NCBI RefSeq assembly: GCF_003612055.1
Contig: NZ_RAWB01000013.1
Location: 1-41,767 of the forward strand
Direction of reading: 5' to 3'
DNA length: 41,767 bases
From: Corallococcus llansteffanensis
GTDB taxonomy: Bacteria; Myxococcota; Myxococcia; Myxococcales; Myxococcaceae
The position numbers and the translations under genes were made by a program. Below the pieces are notes generated by a model. It had not been told where the DNA came from. It searched no databases and saw only the letters and a program-made list of their open reading frames with translations. Positions 9,676 to 41,767 of this stretch are shown here, in pieces; position 1 is the first letter of the stretch; each line of letters starts with the position of its first letter.

Positions 9676-9944
9676 CGGTTCTCCGGGGGTGCAGGGGAGG
9701 GTGCCGAGTGCCCGGATGCCGGAGATGCTCGGTCGGCGCTGACTACGGCGCAGCCCCAGGACCATTTCGCGGTGCCGCGCGAAAAGCTCGAACGATGGGC
9801 GCGGGCACGGCCCACACCGCAGGGGCCATTCGAAGGTCACTGGCGAGCGAGCCCGCTGCGCACGACGAGTTTTCAGGGAGGCGTCCCACTCGGCCAGGAG
9901 CTCCTGCCTGCTCTCTGGACCGGGTGGGCATCGCGCCTCATTTT

Positions 9945-27032: not shown

Positions 27033-27112
27033 GAATGTTCCTGAAGTGAGTGATTCCCGGGCTTTACCACTTTTCAAGCCATGTCCATGAGTCCTCGCTG
27101 ACGCACTGCGTA

Positions 27113-27141
27113 TTGTGGGCGTCACTCCATGAGCCTAGACA
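27113..27141 (+). promoter_or_regulatory. candidate promoter of the RoxA-like gene
   Basis: TTGTGG, 17 bp, TAGACA reads as a sigma-70-type promoter with ideal spacing. The start site would be near 27148, giving a leader of about 38 bases before the GGAGG and ATG at 27186. Confidence 0.35.
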
Positions 27142-27185
27142 ATGCGCTGTTGTCAAAGTGCCAATAAGCAATGGAGGCCGCGCGA

Positions 27186-29207
27186 ATGAGACTGCGATGG
27201 AGCCGTGAGTGGGCATTACCGGGTTGCCTTGTCCTCACCCTGATGGCATCCCGGGCGGACGCGGACCCCCTGCCGCTGCTGGAGTCGACGACGCTGCGTT
27301 CGCCGTTCGCGGCGGCGTGCAACGGGAAGCCGGACTCGACGCCGTTGCCGGTGGATCCGCGCACCCTGGTCGTGCCGGGCGTCAACAAGCCGGGGGCCGC
27401 GGTGCAGTTCAACGCCTACTGGTTGGACCTGCACAACCCTCCAGCGCCGTTCGTCTCGACGCTGCCGCCCAATCCCCAGACGTGCGGCGAGTTCCGCGCG
27501 AGCGTCAACCGGGGGCGCACGAACATCGAGACCCGCGCCTACTTCCAGCCGTTCAGCACCGCGCTCGCCTACTACAACATCTACACACTCTGGGGTTACC
27601 TCATCCGCCCCTCGGACTTCGACGAGCAGGTCATCAAGCGCTACGGGCTCGCGAAGGCGCCGTTCCGCAATCCCTACCCACTGCCGTGGGAGAACCCCAA
27701 CCTCACCCAGGGCGGCAGCGGCCAGCTTCCCCTCGGGCTCGTGCAGGAGCGGGACGCGAACGGGCGTTTTACGGGCAACATCGCCTCCAGCTGCTCGGGC
27801 TGCCACGACTCGCGGCTCGGGACCGAACAGGAGGCAGGCTTCGTGTGGGGCCGCTCTGGCGACGCGATTGACGCGGGGCTCATCCAATCCGACATGTTCC
27901 GCTCGACGGGCGTCGGGACCGTGCTGGAGATCATCCCCGTCCCCTGGAGCGTGGGCCGTGGCTCCAGTGACGCCATCGGCATCGTCGACCTGCTGCCCGC
28001 GCTCTTCGACATGGACTCGCTCGGCCTGGCTCCCAGCCTGCTCGAATACTTCCCGACCCATGCGGGAGGCATGTCCCGCGCGCCCAACTGGTGGCAGCGC
28101 GCCTTCAAGACGCGGCAGTTCTGGGACGGGGCCCTCTCCTCGGACAACGTCCGCTCGGAGATGGCCTTCGGGGTCGCGAACCTGACCCGCTCGCCCGCGG
28201 AGCGCCGGGCGCTGTCCAACGAGTTCGAGGACAACGACAACTTCTTCACCTCGCTCTCGCCCCCGGCCTACCCCAAGACCGTCAACACCACGCTCGCCGA
28301 GCAGGGCGCGATCCTCTTCCACGAGCGCGACCTCTGGGCGAACGGCGCCAACGCCAACATCCCCAAGGCCCCGGGCAATGGCTCCTGCGCGAGCTGCCAC
28401 GGCGTCTACTCGCCGCGCCACGCGGCGAACCCGGCCTTCCTGCCCGACCCTCGCCTCAAGGGCGTCTCTGGCGTCATCACCCCCATCGAGACCATCCGGA
28501 CCGACCCGGCGCGCAAGGGCCTGATGGCGGATGAGCGCAAGCGCAGGGCCTGGAACACGTCCTTCCTCGCCTACAACGACGAGCACCCCGACCACGGCCC
28601 CTTCTACGACGGCATCGTCATGAGCGCGCTGCGCCGCGTGCCGCGTGCCGCCTATGACAACGGCACCGGCCCCGTGTACTCGCCCGTGGGGCCGAACGTG
28701 TGGAACGAGCCGTTTGGCTACATCGCGCCGCCGCTCTACGGGGCGTGGGCCTCCGCCCCGTACTTCCACAACGGCAGCGTGCCCACCCTCTGGGACGTGC
28801 TGAAGCCGTCGGACCGGCCCGCGGTGTGGAAGCGCAAGCAGACCGCCCCCAACGCGCTGGGCACCAACGCGGGCTACGACATGAGCTACTCGGCGTACGA
28901 CTTCGCGAAGCTTGGCTGGAGCGTGACGCCGCTGGCCTGCGCCAACAAGCCCGCCAATGATCCGTTCATCCCCTGCACCCAGGACATGGCGACGCCCGAC
29001 GTCCTCTTCGCGAACATCGCGAACCTGGTGGCCAACTACAACTCACTCGCCTACCAGTCGCCGCCGCCCATCACCCAGAAGCAGATCCGTTCGCGGATGA
29101 TCTTCAATTCGTACCTCTACGGAATGGGCAACGGCGGACATGACTTCACCCAGTCGCTCACGGACAACGAGCGCTGGGCGGTCATCGAGTACGTGAAGAC
29201 GCTTTAA
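27186..29207 (+). CDS. RoxA/RoxB-like rubber oxygenase (diheme cytochrome c)
   Basis: Protein of 673 aa, the same size class as RoxA (678 aa). A signal peptide (WALPGCLVLTLMASRADA) sends it to the periplasm or outside. Two c-type haem sites are present: CSGCH (203-207) and CASCH (401-405), about 200 residues apart as in RoxA. The MauG-like motif PYFHNGSVPTLWDVL (525-539) is also that of rubber oxygenases. RoxA and RoxB cut poly(cis-1,4-isoprene) with O2 into oligo-isoprenoids carrying aldehyde and ketone ends; myxobacterial RoxA enzymes are known. ATG 27186 has GGAGG eight bases upstream; an ATG at 27171 lacks one. Another diheme oxidase function remains possible. It converges on the beta-oxidation operon. 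Confidence 0.75.
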   Translation: MRLRWSREWALPGCLVLTLMASRADADPLPLLESTTLRSPFAAACNGKPDSTPLPVDPRTLVVPGVNKPGAAVQFNAYWLDLHNPPAPFVSTLPPNPQTCGEFRASVNRGRTNIETRAYFQPFSTALAYYNIYTLWGYLIRPSDFDEQVIKRYGLAKAPFRNPYPLPWENPNLTQGGSGQLPLGLVQERDANGRFTGNIASSCSGCHDSRLGTEQEAGFVWGRSGDAIDAGLIQSDMFRSTGVGTVLEIIPVPWSVGRGSSDAIGIVDLLPALFDMDSLGLAPSLLEYFPTHAGGMSRAPNWWQRAFKTRQFWDGALSSDNVRSEMAFGVANLTRSPAERRALSNEFEDNDNFFTSLSPPAYPKTVNTTLAEQGAILFHERDLWANGANANIPKAPGNGSCASCHGVYSPRHAANPAFLPDPRLKGVSGVITPIETIRTDPARKGLMADERKRRAWNTSFLAYNDEHPDHGPFYDGIVMSALRRVPRAAYDNGTGPVYSPVGPNVWNEPFGYIAPPLYGAWASAPYFHNGSVPTLWDVLKPSDRPAVWKRKQTAPNALGTNAGYDMSYSAYDFAKLGWSVTPLACANKPANDPFIPCTQDMATPDVLFANIANLVANYNSLAYQSPPPITQKQIRSRMIFNSYLYGMGNGGHDFTQSLTDNERWAVIEYVKTL

Positions 29208-29260: not shown

Positions 29261-30640
29261 TCACAGGAAGCGTTTGAGGAGGCCGAGCTTTCCGACGTAG
29301 GGCGGGTAGCGCAGCTTCATGTCGAGCGCGAACGGCCGCTTCACCACGCTCTTCTTGTGGCTGAAGGCGTCGAAGCTCGACTGTCCGTGGTAGCCGCCCG
29401 TGCCCGAGTCGCCCACGCCGCCGAAGGGGAGCCCCTCCGCGGCGAAGTGGACGCACACGTCGTTGGTCACGGCGCCACCGCTGGAGGTCTCGGCGAGGAC
29501 GCGGTCGTTCACCGCGGCGTCCCGCGCGAAGCTGTAGAGAGCGAGCGGCTTCGGCCGGGAGCGCACGAAGCGGATGGCGTCGTCAATGCTCGGGCAGTCC
29601 ACGAGCGGCAGCAGGGGGCCGAAGATCTCCTCCTGCATCAGCGGGCTCGACAGCGGCGCATCCGTGATGACGGTGGGCGCGAAGTAGCGGCTGGCCGCGT
29701 CGCGCTCGCCGCCGAAGGCGACCTGCCCGTCGGCCGCGAGCGCGGAGACGCGCTCGAAGTGGCGGGCATTGACGATGCGGCCGTAGTCGCTGCTCTCGCG
29801 CGCGTTCGGGCCGTAGAAGCTCCGGACGGCCTTCTGCACCAGGTCCGTGAAGCGGCCCTTGAGCTCCGGGGGGATGAGCACGTAGTCCGGCGCGATGCAG
29901 GTCTGCCCGGCGTTGACGAACTTGCCCCAGGCGATTCTCCGCGCGGTGACTTCCAGGTCCGCGCTCCGGTCGACGATGCAGGGGCTCTTGCCCCCCAGCT
30001 CGAGGACGGTGGGGGTGAGGTGACGGGCCGCGGCCTCCGCCACGACCCGGCCCACGCTGGTGCCTCCGGTGAAGAAGATGAGGTCCCAGCGCTCCTCCAG
30101 GAGCCGGCGGCTCTCGTCCGCGGCCCCCTCGACGACGGCGACGACCTCCGGGGGGAAGGCCTCGCCCAGCATCCGCGCGAGCACGCGCGACGTCTCCGGC
30201 GCGTGCTCACTGGGCTTCAACACGGCCGTGCAGCCCGCGGCGAGCGCCCCGATGAGCGGTGCGATGGACAGCTGATAGGGATAGTTCCACGGCGCGATGA
30301 TGAGCGTCACGCCCAGCGGGTCCGCGTACTGGTACGCCCGCGCCGGTTGGATGACGAGCGGCGCGGAGCCCCGTCGTGGCTGCATCCACGCCTTCACGTG
30401 CTTGAGCGCGTTCTTGATCTCGCCGTAGATGCTGCCGACCTCGGTGAGGTAGGCCTCCTCCGGGCTCTTGGAGAGGTCCGACTTGAGGGCGGCGAGGATG
30501 TCCGCCTCATGTTTGCGCGCCGCCCGCTCGAGCGCCTGCAACTGCTCCCGCCTCCATTCGAGCGGGAGCGTGACGCGGGTTTCGAAGAAGGCGCGCTGCC
30601 TTGCCACGAGCGATAGCGCATCGAGCGGTGTTCGGACCAT
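29261..30640 (-). CDS. aldehyde dehydrogenase (NAD(P)+)
   Basis: Protein of 459 aa, the shorter class that includes fatty aldehyde dehydrogenases (ALDH3/coniferyl-aldehyde type). Motifs: APWNYPY (116-122), FTGGTSVG for cofactor binding, LELGGKSP with the general-base Glu214, and NAGQTCIAPDY with the nucleophile Cys248. It turns an aldehyde into a carboxylic acid. As the last gene of the beta-oxidation operon (26 bp after the FadJ gene) it could feed acids to the operon's acyl-CoA ligase. ATG 30640 has GGAAGGGGAAG before it. The C-terminal YPPYVGKLGLLKRFL is typical of ALDH3 members and may give membrane association. Confidence 0.92.
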   Translation of the reverse strand: MVRTPLDALSLVARQRAFFETRVTLPLEWRREQLQALERAARKHEADILAALKSDLSKSPEEAYLTEVGSIYGEIKNALKHVKAWMQPRRGSAPLVIQPARAYQYADPLGVTLIIAPWNYPYQLSIAPLIGALAAGCTAVLKPSEHAPETSRVLARMLGEAFPPEVVAVVEGAADESRRLLEERWDLIFFTGGTSVGRVVAEAAARHLTPTVLELGGKSPCIVDRSADLEVTARRIAWGKFVNAGQTCIAPDYVLIPPELKGRFTDLVQKAVRSFYGPNARESSDYGRIVNARHFERVSALAADGQVAFGGERDAASRYFAPTVITDAPLSSPLMQEEIFGPLLPLVDCPSIDDAIRFVRSRPKPLALYSFARDAAVNDRVLAETSSGGAVTNDVCVHFAAEGLPFGGVGDSGTGGYHGQSSFDAFSHKKSVVKRPFALDMKLRYPPYVGKLGLLKRFL

Positions 30641-30666: not shown

Positions 30667-32844
30667 CTACTGCAGGAGTTCGCCTTTTTCGGCCTTCGCG
30701 ACGAGCGACGCGGGCGGCAGGAAGTGCTTCCCGTAGCGCTCCGCGAGCTGGCGCGCGCGGAGGACGAAGCCGCGAGGCCCCGTGCCGGTGGGCCCTTCGT
30801 AGCCGTTGATGTACTGCACGACGCCGCCCGTCCACGCCGGGAAGCCGATGCCGAGGATGGAGCCCACGTTCGCGTCCGCGACGGTGCGCAGCACGCCTTC
30901 GTCGAAGCACCGCACCGTGTCGATGGCCTCGGCGAACAGCATCCGCTCCTTCATGTCCTCGAAGGGGATGGTGTACCCGGGCTTCGTGTAGTGCTGGGTG
31001 AGGCCCGCCCAGAGGCCCGTGCGCTTGCCGTCCGCGTAGTCGTAGAAGCCGCCGCCGGTGGAGCGGCCCTTGCGCTGGTGCTGGTCGATCATCGCGTCCA
31101 TCACCGCGTAGCTGCCGTGCACCTGCCACGTCTGGCCCGAGGCCTCCACGGCGGCCTGGGTCTCCAGGCGGATCTTCCGGGGCAGCGTGAGCGTCAATTC
31201 GTCCACCAGCTGGAGCGGGGCGGCGGGGTAGCCCGCCTGGAGCCCCGCCTGCTCGATGGACGCGGGCGGGATGCCCTCACCCACCATGGCGATGGCCTCA
31301 TTGAGGAACGTGCCAATCACGCGGCTGGTGAAGAAGCCCCGGCTGTCGTTGACGACGATGGGCGTCTTGCCAATCTGCACCGCGATGTCGATGGCCTTCG
31401 CGAGCGTGGCGTCGCTGGTCTGCTTGCCCGCGATGAGCTCCAGCAGCGGCATCTTGTCCACGGGGGAGAAGAAGTGCATCCCGACGAAGTCGGGCGGACG
31501 CGTCACCCCTTCGGCGAGCAGGGAGATGGGCAGCGTGGACGTGTTGGACGCGAGCACCGCGTCCGGGGCGACCACGCCCTGCACCTCCTGGAACACCTTG
31601 TGCTTGAGCTTCACGTCCTCGAAGACGGCCTCGATGACCAGATCACAGCCCGCGAGCGCGGTGGGGTCCGCGGCGGGGGTGATGCGCGAAAGCAGCGCTT
31701 CGCCCTTCTCCTTCGTGGTGGAGCCCTTCTGGACGGCCTTCTCCACGAGCTTCACCGAGTACTGCTTGCCCTTCTGCGCGGCGTCGAGGCTCACGTCCTT
31801 GAGCACCACGTCGATGCCGGCCTTGGCGCACACGTAGGCGATGCCCGCGCCCATCATCCCGGCGCCGAGCACGCCGACCTTCTTCGCCGTGTGCTGCGGG
31901 AAGCCCTTGGGACGACCGCCGCCGGAGTTGATGTGCTGCATGTCGAAGAAGAACGCCTGCATCATGTTCTTCGCGACCTGGCCGGTGGCCAGCTCCGTGA
32001 AGTAGCGCGACTCGATGGTGAACGCGGTGTCCACGTCCACCTGCGTGCTCTCCACGGCCACCGCCATGATGGCGCGCGGCGCGGGCATGTTCGCGCCCTT
32101 CAACTGCTTGCGCAGGTTGGCGGGGAACGCGGGCAGGTTCGCCGCGAAGGAGGGCGAGGACGGCGTGCCGCCCGGAATCTTGTAGCCCTTCGCGTCCCAC
32201 GGCTGCTGCGAGCTCGGGTTCGCCTTCACCCACGCCCTGGCCGCGGGCAGGAGCGCGTCCACCGACTCCACGACCTCGTGCACGAGGCCCAGCTCCTTCG
32301 CCTCCTGCGGGCGGTAGCGCTGGCCCTGGAGCAGGACCTTCATCAGCGCGTCCGTGATGCCCAGCATGCGCACCGTGCGCACCACGCCGCCGCCGCCGGG
32401 GAGCAGCCCGAGCGTCACCTCCGGCAGGCCAAGCTGGGCGCCCTTCACGTCAGCGATGATGCGCCGGTGACACGCGAGCGCGATCTCCAGCCCGCCGCCC
32501 ATCGCCGCGCCGTTGATGGCCGCGACCACGGGCTTGCCCAGCGTCTCCAGCGTGCGCAGCTGCGCCTTGATCTCCTCGCACAGCTCGAAGACCTGCTTCG
32601 CCTCGTCCTTCTTCACGCGGCGCAGGTCGTTCAGGTCGCCGCCCGCGAAGAACGTCTTCTTCGCGGAGGTGAGGATGATGCCGGTGATGCTCGCCTTCTC
32701 CTGGACCAGCCGGTCCACCGCCGCGCGCATGGACTTCACGTAGGCGGCGTTCATCGTGTTCGCGGACTGGGCCGGGTCATCCATCGTCAAGACCACGATG
32801 CCGTCGGCGTCTTTTTCCCAGCGCAGGGTGTTCTGTTCGCTCAT
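30667..32844 (-). CDS. fadJ: bifunctional enoyl-CoA hydratase / 3-hydroxyacyl-CoA dehydrogenase
   Basis: Protein of 725 aa, the length of FadJ/FadB alpha subunits. The N-terminal crotonase domain has an oxyanion segment (FFAGGDL), AAMGGGLEIALAC with Glu120 and LPEVTLGLLPGGGG with Glu142, both hydratase glutamates. The NAD-binding domain starts at VGVLGAGMMGAG (323-334), and GMHFFSPVDKMPLLELI carries the dehydrogenase His. It performs hydration and then oxidation of trans-2-enoyl-CoA to 3-ketoacyl-CoA. The thiolase is encoded just upstream (37 bp), so the two likely form the trifunctional complex. ATG 32844 begins the conserved domain; the frame is open further upstream. The fadJ/fadB distinction is not certain. 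Confidence 0.93.
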   Translation of the reverse strand: MSEQNTLRWEKDADGIVVLTMDDPAQSANTMNAAYVKSMRAAVDRLVQEKASITGIILTSAKKTFFAGGDLNDLRRVKKDEAKQVFELCEEIKAQLRTLETLGKPVVAAINGAAMGGGLEIALACHRRIIADVKGAQLGLPEVTLGLLPGGGGVVRTVRMLGITDALMKVLLQGQRYRPQEAKELGLVHEVVESVDALLPAARAWVKANPSSQQPWDAKGYKIPGGTPSSPSFAANLPAFPANLRKQLKGANMPAPRAIMAVAVESTQVDVDTAFTIESRYFTELATGQVAKNMMQAFFFDMQHINSGGGRPKGFPQHTAKKVGVLGAGMMGAGIAYVCAKAGIDVVLKDVSLDAAQKGKQYSVKLVEKAVQKGSTTKEKGEALLSRITPAADPTALAGCDLVIEAVFEDVKLKHKVFQEVQGVVAPDAVLASNTSTLPISLLAEGVTRPPDFVGMHFFSPVDKMPLLELIAGKQTSDATLAKAIDIAVQIGKTPIVVNDSRGFFTSRVIGTFLNEAIAMVGEGIPPASIEQAGLQAGYPAAPLQLVDELTLTLPRKIRLETQAAVEASGQTWQVHGSYAVMDAMIDQHQRKGRSTGGGFYDYADGKRTGLWAGLTQHYTKPGYTIPFEDMKERMLFAEAIDTVRCFDEGVLRTVADANVGSILGIGFPAWTGGVVQYINGYEGPTGTGPRGFVLRARQLAERYGKHFLPPASLVAKAEKGELLQ

Positions 32845-32881
32845 GGGGATTTGCTCGGAAGGTGTCGAAAAGGGGAGGGGT

Positions 32882-34093
32882 TCAGACGCGCTCGACGAGG
32901 GTGGCAACGCCCATCCCACCGCCGACGCACAGGGTGACGACCGCGCGGCGCGCCTGACGGCGCTCCAGCTCGTCCACCACGGTTCCAAGAATCATGGCGC
33001 CGGTGGCGCCGAGCGGGTGGCCCATGGCGATGGAGCCGCCGTTGACGTTGAGCTTCTCGTCCGGGATGCCCAGGTCCTTCTGGTACTTGAGGACCACGGA
33101 GGCGAAGGCCTCGTTGAGCTCGAAGAGGTCGATGTCCTTCACGCTGAGGCCGGCGATGTCGAGCAGCTTCCGGGTGGCCGGGATGGGGCCCGTGAGCATG
33201 ATGGTGGGGTCCGCACCGGACGTGGCGATGGCCGCGATGCGCGCCCGCGGCGTGAGGCCCAGCGCCTTGCCGACCTTCTCCGAGCCCAACAGGACGAGCG
33301 CCGCGCCGTCGACGATGCCGGAGGAGTTCCCCGGGGTGTGCACGTGGTGGATCTTCTCCACGAAGTGGTACTTCTGCAGCGCCACCGCGTCGAAGCCGCC
33401 GGCCTCGCCCATGGCGGTGAAGGACGCGTTGAGCTGACCGAGCGACGCCACGGTGGAGTCCGGGCGCATGTGCTCATCGCGGTCGAGCACGGTGAGGCCG
33501 TTCTGGTCCACCACCGGGACGACGGACTTCTTGAAGTAGCCTTCCGCCCACGCCTTCGCGGCGAGCGCCTGCGACCTCGCGGCGTAGCGGTCCACGTCCT
33601 CGCGGGTGAAGCCCTCGATCGTCGCGATGAGGTCCGCGGAGATGCCCTGCGGCACGAAGTAGGTGTCGTAGTTGGTGGCCGGATCCAACGCCCAGGCGCC
33701 GCCGTCCGAACCCATGGGGACGCGCGACATGCTCTCCACGCCGCCCGCGATGACCAGGTGCTCCCAGCCCGAGCGCACCTGCTGCGCGGCCAGGTTCACC
33801 GCCGTCAGCCCGGAGGCGCAGAAGCGGTTGAGCTGCACGCCGCCGGTGGTCTCCGCGAGGCCGGCCGCGAGCACCAGCGTGCGCGCGATGTCCGCGCCCT
33901 GGTCCCCGACGGGAGACACGACGCCGAGCACCACGTCGTCGATGCGCTGGGGGTCGAGGTTCGGGTTGCGCTTCTTGAGCGCATCCACCAGGCCGACGAG
34001 CAGCGACACCGGCTTGGTGCCGTGCAGCGCGCCCTTCTTGCCCTTGCCGCGAGGGGTACGAACGGCGTCGAAGATGAAAGCTTCCTGGCTCAC
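32882..34093 (-). CDS. fadI: acetyl-CoA C-acetyltransferase (thiolase)
   Basis: Protein of 403 aa starting at GTG 34093, which follows a very strong AAGGAGG. The nucleophile Cys is in LNRFCASGL (Cys92), and the C-terminal catalytic set is [20 protein letters not shown] (His) and TLCVGGGMG (second Cys). All thiolase residues are intact. It releases acetyl-CoA from 3-ketoacyl-CoA in the last step of beta-oxidation. It lies directly upstream of the bifunctional gene and downstream of an acyl-CoA dehydrogenase (32 bp). The symbol reflects its pairing with a FadJ-like partner; fadA is an alternative. Confidence 0.93.
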
Positions 34094-34125
34094 TCGGAGC
34101 CTCCTTGGAGATGCAGGTGATGGGG

Positions 34126-35274
34126 CTACAGGGAACGGGCGACGAGCTCTTTCATGACCTCGTTCGCGCCGGCGAAGATTCGCAGGACGCGGGTGTCCGC
34201 GAACAGGTGGGCGATAGGGTACTCCTTCATGTAACCGTACCCTCCAAACAGCTGCAGGCAACGGTCCACGACGATGCACGCCTGGTCCGTCACCCAGTAC
34301 TTCGCCATGGCCGCCGTCGTCACGTCGAGCCTGCCCTCGAGGTGGGACGTGATGCAGTCGTCGACGAAGGTGCGACAGACCCGTCCCAGGGTCGCGCACT
34401 CCGCCAGCTCGAAGCGCGTGTTCTGCAGGGCGAAGAGCGGCTTGCCGAAGGCGTGACGCTGCTTCGTGTACGCGACGGTCACCTCCACCGCGCGCTCCAG
34501 GCTCGCCATCCCGATGAGCGCCGTGATCAGCCGCTCCGGCGGAAGCTGCTGCATCAACTGCACGAAGCCCCGGCCCTCCTCGCCGCCGAGCAGGTTGACC
34601 ACCGGGACCTTCAGGTCGTCGAAGAAGAGCTCGGTGGTGTCCTGGCCCTTGCCCCCCAGCTTGTCGAGGATGCGGCCGCGCTGGAAGCCGGGCGTCGTGT
34701 CGGAGACCTCGGCGCACAGCAGCGAGATGCCCGCATGGCCCTTCACGTCCCCCGTCCGCACCACGATGATGATGAAGTCGCAGACGTGGCCGTTGGAGAT
34801 GAACGTCTTCGAGCCGCTCACGCGGTAGAAGTCACCCTCACGCACCGCGCGGGTGGTGATGGCCTGGAGGTCCGAGCCCGTCCCCGGTTCGGTCATGGCG
34901 ATGGCCCCCACCCACTCGCCGCTCGCGAGCCGGGGCAGCCACTTCTGCTTCTGGGCCTCGGACGCATAGGCGAGGAGGTAGTGCGCGACGATGGTGCTGT
35001 GCACGGCGAAGCCCATGGAAGGGTCGCCCGCGCGGACCTGCTCCTCGACGAGGACCGCCTCGTGCGCGAACGTGCCGCCGCCGCCGCCGTAGGCCTCCGG
35101 GATGGACATGCACAAGAGGCCCAGCTCACCCGCCCTGCGGTAGAGGGCCTTGTCCGGATACCCCTGGGCCACGTGCTTGGGCACGTTGGGGAGGACCTCC
35201 TGGGTGAAGTAGCGGGCCGCGAGCTCGCGCACCTGCTCGAGTTCGTCCGAGCTCCATCGGGGACGTGTCGTCAT
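34126..35274 (-). CDS. acyl-CoA dehydrogenase
   Basis: FAD-dependent dehydrogenase of 382 aa. Signatures are [14 protein letters not shown] (FAD/substrate binding), [16 protein letters not shown] and [12 protein letters not shown]. The C-terminal motif usually containing the catalytic Glu (YEGT) reads FAGANEVMK, so Glu376 is absent; the base is more likely the Glu in the helix [11 protein letters not shown], as in long-chain and isovaleryl-CoA dehydrogenases. That fits a branched or long substrate, though this is not proof. It introduces the trans-2 double bond into acyl-CoA and passes electrons to ETF. AGGAGA lies 5 bp before ATG. It is 27 bp downstream of a second acyl-CoA dehydrogenase. 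Confidence 0.93.
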
Positions 35275-35301: not shown

Positions 35302-36441
35302 CTAGAGTCCGAACGTCTTGCCAATGATGTCGCGCTGGATCTCGCTCGTGCCGCCGTAGACGGTGGAGATGACCGTGGCGCGCAGGTGCGACTCCATGTC
35401 GTATTCGGTCGCGTAGCCGTAGCCCCCCATCATCTGCATGCCCTCCAGGGCCACGCGCTTGGCGGTCTCCGTCGTCTTCAGCTTCGCCATCGAGGCCTCG
35501 CGGGGGAGGGTCTGCTCGGGGGCCTCGTCCGCCATGGCGGCCACGCGGTAGACGAGCAGCTCACAGCAATCCAGCTCGGTGGCGAGGTCCGCGATGCGGT
35601 GCTTGAGCGCCTGGAAGGAGCCGACGGGCCGGCCAAACTGCTTGCGCTCCTTCACGTAGGCGACGGCGTCATCGAACGCGCGCCGCCCCCGGCCGAGCAT
35701 GGCCGCGGCGAGGATGAGCCGCTCGCTGTTGAGGCCCGCCATCAACTGGGGCCAGGCGCGGTCCACGGTGCCCACCACGGTGCTCTCCGGGAGGAAGCAG
35801 TCGGTGAAGAAGACGTCGTTGACCTCCTTGCCGCCCAGCGTGGGGATGCCTCGGATCTCCATCCCCGGCGTGCCCGCGGGGACGCAGAACATGGTGAGGC
35901 CCTCGTGCCGCGAGCTGGTGGCGTGGGTGCGGGCCACGAGCAGGAGGTGGTCCGCGAGGTGCGCGTTCGAGCACCAGGTCTTCTGCCCGTTGACGAGGAA
36001 GCCCCCGGGGGTGCGCGTGGCCCGGCAGGTGAGGGCGGCGACATCCGAGCCCGCCCCGGGTTCGGAGATGGAGATGGCCTCCACGCGGCCCCGGGCGATG
36101 CCGCCGAGGATGGTGGCGCGCTGCGCCTCGGTGCCGAACTTCGCGTAGGGGCCGGCGGCGACCGCCGTGGTGATGTAGCCCCCCACGGGGGCGAGCCCGT
36201 AGGCGGTCCGCTCGGCGAACAGGCAGATGTCGGACATGCCTCCGCCCGAGCCGCCGTACTCCGGGGGAAGGCCCACGCCCAGCCAGCCGAGCTCCGCCAT
36301 CTGGGCGTAGAGGGCGGGGCTGTGGGCCTCGGCGCCGTGGTTCGTCAGGGCGTCTCGCTGCGAGCGCGTCCCCGTCTTGGCGCGACAGAACGCGTCGATG
36401 GCGGAAGCGAACGAAGCCTGCTCCGGGGTTCTCGCATGCAT
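35302..36441 (-). CDS. acyl-CoA dehydrogenase
   Basis: Second, divergent acyl-CoA dehydrogenase of 379 aa. SISEPGAGSDVAAL, QKTWCSNAH, RKQFGRPVGSFQ and MMGGYGYATEYD are recognisable. The C-terminal motif is YGGTSEIQRDIIG, where the usual catalytic Glu (YEGTSEIQ) is Gly. Only about a third of residues agree with the neighbouring paralogue by eye, so the two probably handle different chain lengths or branching. In some clusters such pairs act as a heteromer; that is possible here. Gene order is ligase, this gene, then the 382-aa paralogue, with 32- and 27-bp gaps. Confidence 0.92.
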   Translation of the reverse strand: MHARTPEQASFASAIDAFCRAKTGTRSQRDALTNHGAEAHSPALYAQMAELGWLGVGLPPEYGGSGGGMSDICLFAERTAYGLAPVGGYITTAVAAGPYAKFGTEAQRATILGGIARGRVEAISISEPGAGSDVAALTCRATRTPGGFLVNGQKTWCSNAHLADHLLLVARTHATSSRHEGLTMFCVPAGTPGMEIRGIPTLGGKEVNDVFFTDCFLPESTVVGTVDRAWPQLMAGLNSERLILAAAMLGRGRRAFDDAVAYVKERKQFGRPVGSFQALKHRIADLATELDCCELLVYRVAAMADEAPEQTLPREASMAKLKTTETAKRVALEGMQMMGGYGYATEYDMESHLRATVISTVYGGTSEIQRDIIGKTFGL

Positions 36442-36473: not shown

Positions 36474-38312
36474 TCAGGCGTTCGCGTAGAGCGCGGCGAT
36501 GCGCTCAGCGTATTGCGCGAGGACCACGCGGCGCTTGAGCTTGAGGGTGACGGTGAGCTCGCCCGTCGCGGGGGACCACGCCTCGGGCACCACCGCGAAG
36601 GACTTGATCTGCTCCGCGCGGGACAGCCGGGCGTTGGCCGCGGCGACGAGCGACTCGAGCTCGGCGCGGACCCGGGCATCCCGCGCGAGGTCGGCGAGCG
36701 ACTCCGACGCGAGGCCCTGGGCCCGGGCCCAGAGCGGCGCGGCCTCCGGGTCGAGCGAGACGAGCGCCGTCACATAGGGGTGGCCGTCGCCAATCGCGAT
36801 GGCCTGTCCCACGAGGGGGTGCGCGCGCAGCATGCCTTCGAGCTTGGAGGGCGCGATGTTCTTCCCGCTCGAGGTGATGAGCAGCTCCTTCTTGCGGTCG
36901 GTGATGGTGAGGAACCCGTCCGCGTCGAGCGTGCCGATGTCGCCGGTGGCGAGCCAGCCGTCCACGTCCACCCCGCTGATGACCTGACCGTCCGGGGCGA
37001 GGTACCCGGAGAACACCACGGGGCCTCGGACGAAGATCTCCCCGTCCCGGGCCAGGCGCAGCTCCAGCCCGGGGATGGGCCGGCCCACGGCGCCCAGCCG
37101 GAAGTCCGTGGGCGTGTTGATCGTCGCGCAGCCCGTGGTCTCACTCATGCCCCAGACCTCCAGCACCTTGATGCCGAAGCCCCCGAGGTACTCGAGGATC
37201 TCCACCGGGATGGGCGCCGAGCCGCTGCTGGCCCATTCGAGCGCGCCCAGGCCGAGCGACCTGCGCAGCGGTTCAAGGACCTGGGCCTCCACCTCCACGA
37301 CCTTCTGCTGAAGCTCCGGGGGGACCGCCCTGCCGGAGCCCTGGAGTCGGAACGCCTCCAGGGCCAGCGCATGGGCCGCGAGCAGGGGCTCGCGCCGCGA
37401 GGGATCCAGCGCGCCCACCTTCGCCCGCAGGCCACCCGCGAGCTTCTCCCAGAAGCGCGGCACGCCGAAGAACGCGGGCGCACGCGCCCTGGCCAGCAGC
37501 GGCATCAGGTCCGCGGGATCCGCGCAGATGTGCACGTGCAGCGCCTTGTAGAGCGCGCGGTACAGTCCGAGCTCACGCTCCGCGACATGCGCGAGCGGCA
37601 GGTAGGCGATGGACGGCACCCGCATCTGGACGGGGATGGAGGCGTCCACGGCGATGGCCTCGTAGAAGGCGTTGCGGTGGCTCAGCACCACGCCCTTGGG
37701 GTCGCCGGTGGTGCCCGACGTGTACATCATGGCGATCGGGTCCTCGGGCCGGATGTCCTTCCAGCCTTCCTCGAAGACCAGGGGCGCCGCCTGGTGCAGC
37801 GCGCGCCCCTGGGCCTCGACCTCCGCGTAGGAGACGAAGCGCGCGTCCCCGGCGGGGATGGCGGACGGGTCGAGGACGATGATGCGTTTGAGCGCCCCGA
37901 GCGTTTCGAGCACCGGCCACCACCGCGCGACCTCGTCCTTGCCCTCCAGCACCACCACCGTGGCCGCGCTGTGCCGCGCGACGTAGCCCACCTGTTCGGT
38001 GCTCAGCGTCTGGTACGCGGTACAGGGAATCGCGGACAGGTGGACCGCGGCAAAGTCGACGACCCAATGCTCCGGCCGGGCGGACATCATGATCATCATC
38101 CGCTCGCCCTTCTTGAGCCCCAGCGCGTCCAGGCCCCGGGTGAGCGCGGCGGTCTGTTCCCGCAGCTGCGCCCAGGTGAGCGTTTTGTCTCCGGCGGTGA
38201 GGGCGGGAGCGTCCGCGTATTCCTCGGCGTTGCGTTTGAGGAGGAGCGGCAGCGTGAGCTTGTCCGCCAGGGATTGGCACTGCGCTTCCAGGTCTGCGCG
38301 CGACGGATCCAT
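36474..38312 (-). CDS. long-chain acyl-CoA ligase (AMP-forming)
   Basis: Protein of 612 aa of the adenylate-forming family. The P-loop motif is MMYTSGTTGDPKGVVLSH, the A5 motif VWGMSETTG, the A7 motif LATGDIG, the hinge TDRKKELLITSSGKNIAPSK, and the C-terminal catalytic Lys is in TVTLKLKRR. The C-terminal pattern and length match long-chain FadD15-like ligases. It makes acyl-CoA from a free acid, ATP and CoA, the entry step to beta-oxidation. ATG 38312 follows AGGAGGTG; a start 27 nt upstream is weaker. No transmembrane segment. It sits between the SDR (48 bp) and an acyl-CoA dehydrogenase (32 bp). Confidence 0.93.
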   Translation of the reverse strand: MDPSRADLEAQCQSLADKLTLPLLLKRNAEEYADAPALTAGDKTLTWAQLREQTAALTRGLDALGLKKGERMMIMMSARPEHWVVDFAAVHLSAIPCTAYQTLSTEQVGYVARHSAATVVVLEGKDEVARWWPVLETLGALKRIIVLDPSAIPAGDARFVSYAEVEAQGRALHQAAPLVFEEGWKDIRPEDPIAMMYTSGTTGDPKGVVLSHRNAFYEAIAVDASIPVQMRVPSIAYLPLAHVAERELGLYRALYKALHVHICADPADLMPLLARARAPAFFGVPRFWEKLAGGLRAKVGALDPSRREPLLAAHALALEAFRLQGSGRAVPPELQQKVVEVEAQVLEPLRRSLGLGALEWASSGSAPIPVEILEYLGGFGIKVLEVWGMSETTGCATINTPTDFRLGAVGRPIPGLELRLARDGEIFVRGPVVFSGYLAPDGQVISGVDVDGWLATGDIGTLDADGFLTITDRKKELLITSSGKNIAPSKLEGMLRAHPLVGQAIAIGDGHPYVTALVSLDPEAAPLWARAQGLASESLADLARDARVRAELESLVAAANARLSRAEQIKSFAVVPEAWSPATGELTVTLKLKRRVVLAQYAERIAALYANA

Positions 38313-38360: not shown

Positions 38361-39203
38361 TCAGGGGTCGACGTAGAGGTCGAGCACGACGTCGGGGCCG
38401 CCGCCGTAGCGGCTGAAGTCGGTGACGCCTTCGGCGCGCAGGACGTCTTCGTCGATGAAGGTCTGGCCGGTGCATGTCCGCGGCGGGCGCTGGAAGAGGG
38501 CCACGGCCGCGTCGGCCATGATCTCCGGCGAGCGGGCCCGCTGCATCGACGTGTCACCGCCGAGCAGGTTCTTCACGGCGGCGGTGGCGATGAGCGTCCG
38601 GGGCCAGAGCGCGTTCGCGCCAATGCCAGCCTCCGCGAACTCCGCGGCCCAGCCGAGCGTGAGCAGGGTCATGCCGTACTTGGCGACCGTGTAGGCCGGG
38701 TGCAATCCCAGCCAGTGCGGCGCGAGGTTGATGGGCGGTGAGAGCGAGAGGATGTGCGAATGGGGGGAGCGCCGCAGGTGGGGGAGCGCCGCGCGCGTCA
38801 GGAGGAACGTCCCCCGCAGCTGGATCTGCTGCATCAGGTCGAACCGCTTGACGGGCAGCTCCTCCGTCTTGAGCGGAGCGAGGGCGCTCGCGTTGTTGAC
38901 GCAGAAGTCGATGCCGCCAAAGCGCGCCACGGTCGCCTCCACGGCCCGCTGCACGTCCGCCTCGTCGCGCACGTCCCCCACCACGGCGAGCGCCCGGCCC
39001 CCCGCGGCTTCGATCTCCGCGGCCGCCGTGTGCACGGTCCCGGGGAGCCGGGGATCCGGGGTGTCTGTCTTCGCCAGGAGCGCGACGTTGGCTCCCAGCC
39101 GCCCCGCCGCGACCCCGATGGCGAGCCCGATGCCGCGGCTTCCGCCGGACATCAGGAGCGTGCGGCCCGCGAGCGGTCCCTGGGGTGCCAGTCGTTGCGT
39201 CAC
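38361..39203 (-). CDS. HSDL2-like short-chain dehydrogenase
   Basis: SDR of 280 aa with the Rossmann motif SGGSRGIG near 19-26, NNASALAP in place of NNAG, LSLSPPINL replacing the usual Ser strand and AYTVAKYGM as Tyr/Lys. The long insertion after the first helix (LLAKTDTPDPRLPGTVHTAA) and the NNASALAP segment are signatures of the HSDL2/peroxisomal-like SDR subgroup, associated with lipid and isoprenoid metabolism. Here it lacks the SCP2 sterol-carrier tail of the animal protein. It starts with GTG overlapping the TGA of the TetR gene (GTGA), so the two are translationally coupled. Confidence 0.9.
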   Translation of the reverse strand: MTQRLAPQGPLAGRTLLMSGGSRGIGLAIGVAAGRLGANVALLAKTDTPDPRLPGTVHTAAAEIEAAGGRALAVVGDVRDEADVQRAVEATVARFGGIDFCVNNASALAPLKTEELPVKRFDLMQQIQLRGTFLLTRAALPHLRRSPHSHILSLSPPINLAPHWLGLHPAYTVAKYGMTLLTLGWAAEFAEAGIGANALWPRTLIATAAVKNLLGGDTSMQRARSPEIMADAAVALFQRPPRTCTGQTFIDEDVLRAEGVTDFSRYGGGPDVVLDLYVDP

Positions 39204-39871
39204 CGCTTGGGCCCCGTCTTGGGCGCCCGGGCGTCGCCGCGCGCGGGGCCGTCCTGCTGGGCCAGTTGGGGGAACACGTCGCGCACGATGACGATCAGCG
39301 CTTCGCTCAGGAGCAGCTGGACGTCCTCGCGGGAGAGCGTTCCGCCGCGGATCCACTCGCGGATGGAGGCCTTCACCAGTCCGGCGTAGGAGCGCATCAT
39401 CGCCCGGTGGCGCGCGTCGTTCCCGACCTCGACCTTGAGGCCCAGGAATTCGAGCGTCTTCGCGGCGGCCACGTCGTCCGCCTGCGCGATGATGTTCTCG
39501 ACCTCCGGGTCCGCTCCAATGCCTCCCATGCCGGTCACGGCCACGTAGGTCTTTCCGTGGGTCGCGACGGTGTCGAGGTACCACTCGACGCTGCGCTCCA
39601 CCCGCTCCCGAAGGGGCCCCGTCATGGTCACGTTCTCTTCCAGGCCGGGCATGAGCAGCATCCTCTTCACGACCTTCAGATAGAGGTCCCGCTTCTGCCC
39701 GAAGTAGTGGTTGAGCAATCCCCGGGCGACGCCTGCCTCCCGGGCAATGTCCGTGGTGGAGACTTCCGCGTAGGGGCGCTCACCGAACAGCCGCGTGGCG
39801 CATTCGAGGATCTGCTCCCTGCGCTTGTCCGGTTCGAGCCGCTTCCAGCGTGGCAGGGCGGCCGGGCTCAT
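39200..39871 (-). CDS. TetR family transcriptional regulator
   Basis: Regulator of 223 aa. The N-terminal helix-turn-helix is clear: RREQILECATRLFGERPYAE then TTDIAREAGVARGLLNHYFG and KRDLYLKVV. The C-terminal ligand domain is helical and not assigned. The ATG overlaps the stop of the crotonase gene (ATGA) and its TGA overlaps the SDR start (GTGA), so it is embedded in the operon it probably controls. A near-palindrome of 19 bp over the operon promoter is a good candidate binding site. By analogy with FadR/PsrA/LiuR-type repressors the ligand could be an acyl-CoA; this is inference. Confidence 0.92.
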   Translation of the reverse strand: MSPAALPRWKRLEPDKRREQILECATRLFGERPYAEVSTTDIAREAGVARGLLNHYFGQKRDLYLKVVKRMLLMPGLEENVTMTGPLRERVERSVEWYLDTVATHGKTYVAVTGMGGIGADPEVENIIAQADDVAAAKTLEFLGLKVEVGNDARHRAMMRSYAGLVKASIREWIRGGTLSREDVQLLLSEALIVIVRDVFPQLAQQDGPARGDARAPKTGPKR

Positions 39872-40707
39872 GGGTTCTCCCTCCACGGCAGGAACGCGGG
39901 CAGGTCCTGCGTCACCGTCCGGGAGAACTTCGCGGGCCGCTTCTGCATGAAGGCCATCACGCCCTCCAGCGCGTCCGCGCTCTCCCCCAGGCTCGCGATG
40001 AGCTGGCTGTCGAGTTCGAAGGCGGGCTCGGGTGAGGCCAGGGCGCTCATCCGGTAGAGGGCCTGGCGGATGACGGCCACGGAGACCGGCGCGGTGTTCT
40101 CCACCAGCTCGCGGGCGAGTGCATGGGCGGCGTCGAGCAGCGCTTCGGGTTCGTGGAGCGAGCGGACCAGCCCCGCGCCGAGCGCCTCCTCCGCGGAAAT
40201 CAACCGGCCGCTCACCATCCAATCCAGCGCGCGTCCCATCCCGACGATGCGCGGCAGGAACCAGCTGGAGCCCGCCTCCGGATAGATGCCCCGCCGGCTG
40301 AAGACGAAGCCGAAGCGGCTGTTCTTCGCGGCGAGGCGGAAGTCCGCGGGGAGGATCATCGTGGAGCCGACGCCCACCGCGGCGCCCTGGATGGCGGCGA
40401 TGATGGGTTTGCGCAGCGCGAACATCTGGCGCGTCACCCGCGTCGCGGGTTCGACCCAGTCGCCCTCCGGAACCCGCGTGTTCGTCACCTCGAGCGAGCT
40501 GCCGCTCAAGTCCGCTCCCACGCAGAAGTCCTTGCCGGCGCCGGTGAGGACGACCACGCGCACGCCTTCGTCCGCATCCGCGTCCGCGAGCGCGTCCGCG
40601 AGCTCATCCGCCATCATCACGGTGAAGCCGTTGCGCGCCTCCGGGCGGTGCAACTCCAGGGTAGCGACCCGGTCCGCGACTGAAAACCGGATGTGCTGAT
40701 AGCTCAT
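39868..40707 (-). CDS. crotonase-family enoyl-CoA hydratase/isomerase
   Basis: Protein of 279 aa, first gene of the operon. The oxyanion-hole segments (KDFCVGADLSG and QGAAVGVGSTMILPADFRLA) and the helix RRGIYPEAGSSW are visible. The first catalytic Glu of hydratases (GGGxE) is replaced by Ser-Thr in GVGSTM, whereas the second (YPEAG) remains. One-Glu crotonases are often delta3,delta2-enoyl-CoA isomerases, which fits unsaturated substrates, but some hydratase-like and other crotonases also vary here. ATG 40707 lacks a good SD. It is 30 bp downstream of a strong-looking promoter and overlaps the TetR gene by 4 bp. Confidence 0.9.
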   Translation of the reverse strand: MSYQHIRFSVADRVATLELHRPEARNGFTVMMADELADALADADADEGVRVVVLTGAGKDFCVGADLSGSSLEVTNTRVPEGDWVEPATRVTRQMFALRKPIIAAIQGAAVGVGSTMILPADFRLAAKNSRFGFVFSRRGIYPEAGSSWFLPRIVGMGRALDWMVSGRLISAEEALGAGLVRSLHEPEALLDAAHALARELVENTAPVSVAVIRQALYRMSALASPEPAFELDSQLIASLGESADALEGVMAFMQKRPAKFSRTVTQDLPAFLPWRENP

Positions 40708-40737: not shown

Positions 40738-40768
40738 ATGATGGTAGCTTGTTGGCACAGCGTCAACA
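40738..40768 (-). promoter_or_regulatory. operon promoter with overlapping TetR-type operator
   Basis: On the minus strand TTGACG (40766-40761), 17 bp, CATCAT (40743-40738) is a good sigma-70-type promoter reading into the crotonase-led operon. TGTTGGCACAGCGTCAACA (40750-40768), pairing at seven of nine positions around a central A, covers the -35 box and spacer. This is the layout of a repressor operator, and a TetR gene is the second gene of the operon. Confidence 0.6.
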
Positions 40769-40795
40769 GCAAGTCGCATTGGAAATGCCTTTTCC

Positions 40796-41569
40796 ATGAC
40801 TCCTTCTTCCTTTTGTCTCGAGGGTCGCCGCGCCCTGATCACAGGCGCCTCCAGTGGGTTGGGGCTGCACTTCGCCGGGGTGCTGGCGCGGGCGGGCGCC
40901 GAGGTCGTGTTGGCGGCGCGCAGTACCGACAAGCTTGTCACCGAGGTCGAACAGCTGCGTGCGTCGGGGGCACGGGCCCATGCGGTGTCGCTCGATGTGA
41001 CCCGCTCCGAGTCCGTGCAGGCAGGCGTGGCCGAGGCCGAAAGGCTGGCGGGCGGAGTCCTGGACGTGCTGGTGAACAACGCGGGGGTGTCCGGCGAGCA
41101 CTTCTTCCTCCAGGTGGAGGAGCCCGAGTGGGATGCGGTGGTCGATACCAACCTCAAGGGCGCCTACCTGGTGGCCCGGGCCGTGGCCCGTCGTCTGGTG
41201 GAGGCCGGCACGCCCGGCAGCATCATCAACATCGCCTCCATCCTGGGGCTGCGCGTGAGCGGCTCGGTGGCGCCATACTGCGCCTCCAAGGCGGGGTTGA
41301 TCCACCTCACCAGGGCCATGGCGCTGGAGCTGGCGCGTCACCGGATTCGCGTGAACGCCCTCGCGCCCGGCTACATCGAAACCGACCTCAATCGCGGGTT
41401 CTTCGAAAGCGGCGCTGGCCAGAAGGTGCTTGCTCGCATTCCCTTCCGCCGGCTCGGCCTCATGCGGGAGCTGGAGGGGCCGCTGTTGCTCCTGGCCTCG
41501 GAGGCCGGCAGCTACATGAGCGGCAGTGTGCTGGAAGTGGATGGTGGCCACCTCTGCTCCACCCTGTAG
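40796..41569 (+). CDS. SDR family oxidoreductase (3-ketoacyl/3-hydroxyacyl type)
   Basis: SDR of 257 aa with TGASSGLG, NNAGVSG, NIASILG (Ser strand), YCASK (catalytic Tyr/Lys) and GSVLEVDGGHLCS at the C-terminus; all catalytic residues present. The sequence is FabG/HSD-like, so a 3-hydroxyacyl-CoA or other hydroxy-lipid is a likely substrate given the neighbours. It is divergent from the beta-oxidation operon and shares the 88-bp promoter region with it, including the TetR-type operator. A partial acyl-CoA dehydrogenase gene starts 17 bp after its stop, so it heads another operon. Confidence 0.92.
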   Translation: MTPSSFCLEGRRALITGASSGLGLHFAGVLARAGAEVVLAARSTDKLVTEVEQLRASGARAHAVSLDVTRSESVQAGVAEAERLAGGVLDVLVNNAGVSGEHFFLQVEEPEWDAVVDTNLKGAYLVARAVARRLVEAGTPGSIINIASILGLRVSGSVAPYCASKAGLIHLTRAMALELARHRIRVNALAPGYIETDLNRGFFESGAGQKVLARIPFRRLGLMRELEGPLLLLASEAGSYMSGSVLEVDGGHLCSTL

Positions 41570-41586: not shown

Positions 41587-41767
41587 ATGGATTTCTCTCT
41601 CTCCCCTGAAATCGAAGACTACCGGCTGCGGGTGCGTGCCTTCGTGGAGCAGCACGTGCTGCCGCTGGAAACCCAACCCGACGCCTTCGACGCGCACGAG
41701 AACCTCCGTGAAGAGGTCGTGGCCCGGGTGCGTGCCCGGGCCCGCGCCGAAGGGCTCTGGGCCTTCC
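41587..41767 (+). CDS. acyl-CoA dehydrogenase, N-terminal part (runs off window)
   Basis: Sixty codons remain before the window ends. MDFSLSPEIEDYRLRVRAFV followed by EQHVLPLE and GLWAF is the N-terminal helical domain of acyl-CoA dehydrogenases. TTGGAG lies at good distance before the ATG. It follows the SDR by 17 bp, so it is part of the divergent operon and would be a third acyl-CoA dehydrogenase in this locus. Confidence 0.85.
   Translation, partial: MDFSLSPEIEDYRLRVRAFVEQHVLPLETQPDAFDAHENLREEVVARVRARARAEGLWAF

Follow-up and report, generated by a model that had tools for sequence, protein, structure and literature searches.

The window, meaning the whole 41,767-nucleotide stretch of contig NZ_RAWB01000013.1 of Corallococcus llansteffanensis that was analysed (the assembly comprises 10.5 Mb in 1244 contigs), carries a minus-strand operon (40707-29261) encoding, in order, enoyl-CoA hydratase (ECH), a TetR-family regulator, an SDR oxidoreductase, an acyl-CoA ligase, two acyl-CoA dehydrogenases, a thiolase, a FadJ-like protein and an aldehyde dehydrogenase (ALDH), with intergenic gaps of ~50 bp or less at the chosen start codons (Table 1). 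The TetR gene overlaps its neighbours by 4 bp at both ends (39868-39871 with the ECH stop, 39200-39203 with the SDR start), as an earlier, preliminary description of this DNA had it. A second SDR gene (ATG at 40796) diverges from ECH across a gap of 88 bp and is followed by a gene whose 60 in-window residues have no Pfam match. A gene for a RoxA-type protein lies beyond ALDH on the plus strand. Divergent from it, on the minus strand (25047-27125), is the gene of a large protein matched by DUF1565, fibronectin type III and lectin-like models, which may share a promoter region with roxA. PADLOC found nothing.

Table 1. Coordinates of genes and of observed and predicted sequence elements in the window
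Feature	Position	Strand	Evidence
Candidate operator 1	40750..40768	.	TGTTGGCACAGCGTCAACA; minus strand reads TGTTGACGCTGTGCCAACA; conserved in 33/33 orthologous promoters
-35 hexamer TTGACG	40761..40766	-	inside operator 1; TTGAC invariant in 33/33 ECH promoters
-10 hexamer CATCAT	40738..40743	-	across 33 ECH promoters: C33 A33 T28 C27 A32 T33
Enoyl-CoA hydratase (ECH), first operon gene	39868..40707	-	PF00378 E 1.6e-48; NF006109 above cut-off
TetR-family regulator, 223 aa	39200..39871	-	PF00440 54.6 bits (cut-off 24); PF21943 35.8 bits (cut-off 27)
SDR oxidoreductase, PRK08278 type	38361..39203	-	NF006133 406.8 bits, cut-off 250
Acyl-CoA ligase	36474..38309	-	PF00501 E 3e-65; start codon chosen here
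Acyl-CoA dehydrogenase 1	35302..36441	-	PF00441 E 4e-45
Acyl-CoA dehydrogenase 2	34126..35274	-	PF00441 E 9e-38
Thiolase	32882..34114	-	PF00108 E 2.1e-47, PF02803 E 2.5e-46; start codon chosen here
FadJ/FadB-like hydratase / 3-hydroxyacyl-CoA dehydrogenase	30667..32847	-	PF02737 E 1.4e-63; start codon chosen here
Aldehyde dehydrogenase (ALDH), last operon gene	29261..30637	-	PF00171 E 8.8e-84; start codon chosen here
Divergent SDR oxidoreductase, first gene of divergent operon	40796..41569	+	12/12 family homologues with candidate operator upstream
Start of gene after divergent SDR	41587..41767	+	by eye acyl-CoA dehydrogenase N-terminus; leaves window
Predicted RoxA-type rubber oxygenase	27186..29207	+	PF21419 E 9.5e-22; frame open from 27171
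Candidate operator 2, before roxA	27148..27166	+	TGTTGTCAAAGTGCCAATA, 1 mismatch
TGACGC of second element, before roxA	27099..27104	+	T[GA]ACGC kept in 32/33 roxA promoters

The N-terminal TetR_N helix-turn-helix of the regulator scores above the Pfam cut-off, and its residues are almost invariant across 15 orthologues. The best NCBIfam match of the protein is the FasR equivalog NF053731, which it matches at 57 bits (cut-off 330); the models of Bacillus FadR (NF053878, 30.1 of 200 bits) and PsrA (NF053516, 29.8 of 300 bits) are also matched below their cut-offs. The closest matches among named records are from Corallococcus. By sequence, the best PDB match is 2qib and the second is 6o6p (titled TetR regulator), which we take to be FasR. 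The AlphaFold model of the regulator is of poor quality, with a pLDDT of 45.5.

The dyad upstream of ECH and its conservation

The gap between ECH and the divergent SDR gene holds a 19-bp near-palindrome (TGTTGGCAC-A-GCGTCAACA on the plus strand, 40750-40768), the arms of which agree at 7 of 9 positions and are perfect over the outer five, and a minus-strand promoter consisting of TTGACG (40766-40761), a 17-bp spacer and CATCAT (40743-40738), with 9 of 12 matches to consensus. This is the sole promoter-like site found between 40600 and 40900. The preliminary description had placed the palindrome within 40738-40768 and over the -35 element of this promoter, and all of this holds. The same promoter search did not find a -10 element for the divergent SDR gene, which counts against the explanation favoured below. 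In the window alone, the palindrome by itself is no better than chance: when the gap was shuffled 2000 times with dinucleotides preserved, 410 of the shuffled sequences held one with equally good 9-bp arms, and 18 19-mers in the whole window are as good as operator 1 with the outer five positions perfect. The palindrome becomes convincing only by comparison, and relatives were therefore compared.

Among 96 genomes of the family, ECH is present in 33 and the TetR gene in 34 (62 have no TetR match at E 1e-50). The pattern TRTTGACN5GCCAAYA is found in all 33 orthologous ECH promoters, and most flanking bases vary. (Twelve of the 19 positions are invariant, including both outer bases, TTGAC and GCCAA; the -10 hexamer is nearly so.) In each of the 33 genomes TetR follows within ~20 bp of the ECH end, judged by match coordinates. 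A palindromic, operator-like site at the regulator's own operon, as expected of the TetR family, is thus a feature of every one of these promoters, and the comparison bears out the original reading of a TetR-type operator as a sequence-based prediction; with the site in front of ECH and TetR directly behind it, the regulator gene would, as had been proposed, lie inside the operon that it controls.

Changes in the two arms tend to go together. Positions 2 and 18 read G/C at 24 sites, A/T at six, A/C at two and G/T at one, so that a change of G to A at position 2 tends to be paired with C to T at its mirror position. On the ECH gene tree Pagel's test favours the dependent model (LRT 15.5, p 0.004), and the phi of 0.74 for this pair was reached in none of 2000 independent simulations. 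By mutual information the pair ranks 85 of 1711, that is, it is not singled out, and a parsimony branch-overlap test counts one shared branch (P 0.40) because the parsimony reconstructions tie. Such mirrored conservation within the spacer of a promoter would be expected if a dimeric protein binds the DNA there.

When TTGRC and GYCAA arms are allowed, there are 92 exact occurrences of TRTTGRCN5GYCAAYA across the 33 genomes with ECH and TetR (one to five in each) and eight in the other 63; a reversed control pattern occurs at two places in the 96 genomes. The view that each genome has just one copy of the site was therefore wrong; it had rested on a pattern that fixed the left arm as TTGAC and on a site model, derived from the 33 ECH sites, with which 150 of 6249 candidates in the window's own genome were scored. 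Among these the window operator comes first (29.7 bits; the next has 11.7), and the scan missed the roxA and ADH sites of the same genome, which counts against the best explanation. In relatives the model brought up further sites. Ten were read, including better palindromes (for example TATTGGCACTGTGCCAATA) before genes for a family of exported proteins, RoxA-like cytochrome by its Pfam name, before ADH and before a copy of the divergent SDR gene lying apart from ECH. The consensus of the predicted composite promoter-operator is TRTTGRC-N5-GYCAAYA.

The eight sites outside the ECH-bearing genomes are spread over seven genomes and also count against the best explanation. That of G025 lies inside an unrelated reading frame and that of G073 inside a reading frame; the remaining ones are in G066, G067, G100, G111 (two) and G112, and surroundings were read for G025, G073, G066 and G067. 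G066 and G067, which belong to one genus, have the site TATTGGCGA[AT]TCG[TC]CAATA (L166 1501-1519, L167 1501-1519), with no clear gene nearby under the reading-frame filter. A wider pattern search also gave a site in G036, ~640 bp away from the single reading frame displayed there. One record with the ECH/TetR locus of these myxobacteria, BNCN01000005.1 (L021), is titled 'Comamonas sp. KCTC 72670' and is probably mislabelled.

Rubber oxygenase, SDR and ADH genes behind the same site

Searching for the same palindrome, which the preliminary description had put forward as a check, places it also before roxA in the window and before ADH on contig C858 of the same genome. The protein encoded at 27186-29207 aligns over its full length with PDB 4b2n (1013 bits; query 22-673, chain 9-662), with 274 of 410 residues identical over the N-terminal part measured. 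The entry 4b2n is titled '70 kDa protein'; we take it to be RoxA of Xanthomonas (Steroidobacter) strain 35Y. It has CSACH195, CASCH394, W302 and F317 at exactly the residue numbers that PMC6311187 gives for RoxA of that strain. According to the same source RoxA proteins are marked by the haem motifs CS[AG]CH and CASCH, W302 and F317 and share >60% identity with strain 35Y RoxA over 90% or more of the length. The window protein has CSGCH, CASCH and the equivalents of W302 and F317, and its identity, counted over those 410 positions of the N-terminal part, exceeds 60%; judged by these features, it is a RoxA-type rubber oxygenase. Rubber cleavage is reported for myxobacterial RoxA homologues, and Corallococcus coralloides and Myxococcus fulvus appear in a strain table (PMC6311187).

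A search for RoxA-like proteins gave 82 matches down to E 2.1e-17, of which 80 were fetched; with the window's own, 81 loci were examined. (G020:C901 was left out, its gene start being off the contig, and nine of the 81, which BLAST did not match to the RoxA of the window, were not scored.) Among these loci RoxA orthologues, with at least 81% identity to that of the window, are confined to exactly the 33 genomes with ECH and TetR. All 33 have CSGCH, CASCH, W and F as well as the MauG-type motif P[FY][FL]HN[GS]S[VI]P, and upstream of each of the 33 genes the site stands between -35 and -42, free of mismatches in 16, with one in 13 and with two in four. Half of these sites deviate, with TTGTC as left arm in 17 of 33 and GCTAA as right arm in four of 33, and this counts against the best explanation.

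Twenty-five further loci encode paralogues with 34-37% identity. Fifteen of these, each from a different genome, have the signature of RoxB (CHACH, CASCH, the F317 equivalent, and at W302 V in 13 and I in two); none was found in the window's genome. The other ten form a group of CSVCH-type dihaem proteins from TetR-bearing genomes, with W for F317 (L225-L228, L232, L269, L271-L274). In the fetched stretches the exact operator pattern is present at 15 of 15 RoxB loci and absent from all ten CSVCH loci. The arm in gene direction is TTGAC in all 15 RoxB promoters, as it is before ECH; CATCAT follows exactly and at the ECH spacing in six, and most of the others have a related hexamer. In G062 the RoxB promoter (L244 478-518) has two tandem sites, TGTTGACATCCCGCCAACA and TATTGACCCTCCGTCAATA, with starts 22 bp apart. 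At 14 loci of lower identity (five in genomes with TetR, nine in genomes lacking it) the site is matched at best with 3-6 mismatches; the stretches compared at L220 and L264 are not reliable (gene start beyond the contig end; match of 58 residues).

Homologues of the divergent SDR are found in 12 of the 96 genomes, each with the site upstream. In the window's genus they adjoin ECH and have the site in common with it (eight genomes); in another genus (g41) four are unlinked to ECH, and each has an exact site of its own. This lends support to the proposal that the operator region in the window is common to both operons. ADH, a zinc alcohol dehydrogenase gene followed by one for a GXWXG/DUF4334 protein, is found in 25 genomes, each of which also has ECH and TetR. 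The site is present in all 24 readable ADH promoters (20 exact, four with one mismatch) and starts 27-32 bp before the start codon. (The promoters of L329 and L331 run off their contigs, and for the window's genome, G000, a 5' piece on another contig, L213, was used.) In this genome ADH begins on C858 behind the exact site TGTTGGCGGAATGCCAATA.

A second conserved element accompanies part of this set. At a distance of 44-62 bp on the upstream side of the operator, 31 of 33 ECH promoters have TGACGC and 32 of 33 roxA promoters T[GA]ACGC; at this distance the element is absent from all 24 ADH promoters. Before ECH the full element approximates TGACGCN5GTCGA and is mostly 45-48 or 58-59 bp away, distances about one helical turn apart. 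The two ECH promoters without it are those of G078 and of the window, where ~22 bp including TGACGCN5GTCGAAA are missing at 40769-40795 when compared with L013 and L014, the nearest relatives. This comparison indicates that the strain has lost the second element before the catabolic operon and kept the one before roxA. The element may be an activator site. TGACGCN5GTCGAAA occurs in 22 of 59 genomes searched; four matches away from ECH were read, with no visible link to lipids, and gave no further regulon.

A predicted regulon for polyisoprene catabolism

The 19-bp dyad is probably the operator of a TetR repressor encoded in the same operon and controlling a polyisoprene-catabolism regulon, a reading that we hold with considerable confidence. 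Site conservation, regulon membership, phyletic co-occurrence and promoter overlap are its sequence basis; from these we infer binding of TetR to the site, repression, and the ligand. TetR is the obvious candidate because it stands behind ECH in every ECH genome and because its helix-turn-helix is nearly invariant in the 15 orthologues. A TetR dimer would sit on a composite promoter-operator, one arm of which supplies the -35 element (TTGAC), so that bound repressor would block RNA polymerase at the operon from ECH through TetR, SDR, ligase, dehydrogenases, thiolase and FadJ to ALDH. Since this operon holds the TetR gene, TetR would be autoregulated. In Corallococcus the same dyad would also serve the divergent SDR operon. 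The site lies on the -35 element before ECH and RoxB, beside the ribosome-binding site before roxA (with TTGGC or TTGTC as the arm), and immediately ahead of the ADH start codon; these differing positions relative to the promoter suit a steric repressor better than an activator.

The preliminary description had called the operon a beta-oxidation operon. Its enzymes are indeed of beta-oxidation type, but, since the predicted regulon includes RoxA, RoxB and ADH, the operon is more aptly seen as the catabolic branch of polyisoprene degradation. RoxA and RoxB would cleave rubber outside the cell to ODTD and to longer oligo-isoprenoids with aldehyde and ketone ends; ALDH and the acyl-CoA ligase would turn the aldehyde into an acyl-CoA, which would enter beta-oxidation, and ADH would also belong to the regulon. 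The product of RoxA is the C15 keto-aldehyde ODTD (PMC6311187). Because RoxA makes ODTD and the regulon holds ALDH, the ligase and beta-oxidation enzymes, the inducer is likely to be an intracellular rubber-cleavage product, most probably an isoprenoid acid or its CoA ester. The substrate is deduced from RoxA and RoxB, and the operon could serve other lipids too.

Several other readings of the same observations have to be weighed. The enzymes of the operon are of generic beta-oxidation types, and the regulon might be an ordinary one for fatty-acid degradation, resembling those of FadR, PsrA or FadP and responding to common acyl-CoAs, with RoxA and RoxB incidental to it. This we consider unlikely, and the extra sites before RoxA and RoxB genes are what demotes it: RoxA orthologues occur only together with this TetR and always with the site, and the sites tell true RoxB genes from paralogues. 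Moreover the regulator scores far below the cut-offs of the PsrA and Bacillus FadR models, and its absence, at E 1e-50, from 62 of the 96 genomes argues against an ordinary fatty-acid regulon. That a different transcription factor of the same genomes binds the dyad, with TetR regulating something else, seems to us a little less probable still. TetR is tied to the site by co-occurrence and linkage only, and the second conserved element implies that one or more additional factors may act at these promoters; against this stand the invariable place of TetR directly behind ECH and the conservation of its helix-turn-helix together with the site. A 19-bp dyad is, besides, typical of the TetR family.

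Lower again we would place TetR as an activator of these promoters. Its best NCBIfam match, though far below cut-off, is to FasR, a TetR-like activator of mycobacteria (PMC7382501), but sites on the -35 element or near gene starts, at varying distances, argue against activation. Finally, the palindrome might be a matter of chance and the conservation only that of a sigma-70 promoter. The shuffles would allow this for the window alone; conservation in relatives and recurrence make it scarcely credible, and we reject it: every one of the 33 ECH promoters keeps GCCAAYA in its spacer, and copies of the dyad are also found in front of roxA, roxB, ADH and SDR genes unlinked to ECH.

The proposed repressor has counterparts among known systems. 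LcpR proteins are TetR-family regulators of latex-clearing protein (Lcp) genes in actinobacteria (LcpR-VH2, LcpRB-A3(2), Actinoplanes ACTI_59620/69510; PMC7413915, PMC8235351). They share with the present case a TetR-family protein, palindromes before rubber-oxygenase genes and a rubber-induced pathway (binding being predicted here), but belong to a different bacterial group and serve another oxygenase, Lcp, which is unrelated in sequence to RoxA and RoxB (PMC6311187). Their operators also differ: those given in PMC7413915 and PMC8235351 are GATGTTACAACG...CGTTGTTACATC and TATGTTAAT-N2-AAAATCACA, to which TRTTGRCN5GYCAAYA has by eye no resemblance, a distinction drawn by operator and not by protein sequence. 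FasR of Mycobacterium tuberculosis has a TetR fold and senses long acyl-CoA (PMC7382501), but is an activator of fatty-acid synthesis and not a catabolic regulator. Bacillus FadR, PsrA and FadP are TetR proteins each controlling several beta-oxidation operons (FadP is described in betaproteobacteria only; PMC5343134); in the present case rubber oxygenases are predicted members of the regulon. The predicted targets agree with the RoxA/RoxB literature in bearing the published haem motifs with W302 and F317, or the signature CHACH, V/I and F (PMC6311187, PMC10837239, PMC5979037, PMC10731047). In the searched portions of these four papers no regulator of roxA or roxB is named; in PMC6311187 the only mention of regulation there is a reference on lcp, and the mentions in the excerpts of PMC5979037 concern other matters. 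Among the matches listed from the rubber literature, mostly non-subscription papers, no title or opening of an abstract describes such a regulator.

The regulon of this TetR is, to our knowledge, undescribed. TetR-type catabolic repressors and TetR control of Lcp genes are known already; the RoxA/RoxB rubber-oxygenase regulon would be the new part. We lean, with somewhat less assurance than for the operator, towards the fuller proposition that this is the first control system identified for RoxA and RoxB, in which a TetR repressor senses an isoprenoid product, the regulon defines the intracellular route of ODTD (ADH, ALDH, acyl-CoA ligase, two SDRs and beta-oxidation), and a second factor acts through TGACGC. 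The route of ODTD into central metabolism given in PMC5979037 is a prediction from general beta-oxidation genes. The proposition thus bears on how Gram-negative rubber oxygenases are regulated and on which enzymes take the C15 product into central metabolism. The recurring site looks like an on/off switch of the whole rubber-degradation programme, and the operator set offers a concrete, genome-defined list of co-regulated genes, in which regulation tells true RoxB genes from look-alike paralogues. Deletion of the repressor should switch the pathway on, and the promoter might be used as a biosensor for rubber-cleavage products.

An apparently decaying copy in Corallococcus exercitus

C. exercitus (G003, locus L025) has TetR but neither the ECH promoter nor roxA, which counts against the best explanation. 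At L025 4400-5000 the ECH promoter and the greater part of ECH have been replaced in a rearrangement, and TetR and the 3' tail of ECH are kept. TetR is followed by thiolase and FadJ; ALDH is present only in fragments, and no roxA reading frame was found at the locus. The roxA promoter persists as a relic ~4 kb downstream of TetR (region 9360-9800), with the operator sequence TGTTGTCAGGGTGCCAATA (9699-9717, minus strand) and a TAACGC element. The catabolic set appears to be in course of loss in this species.
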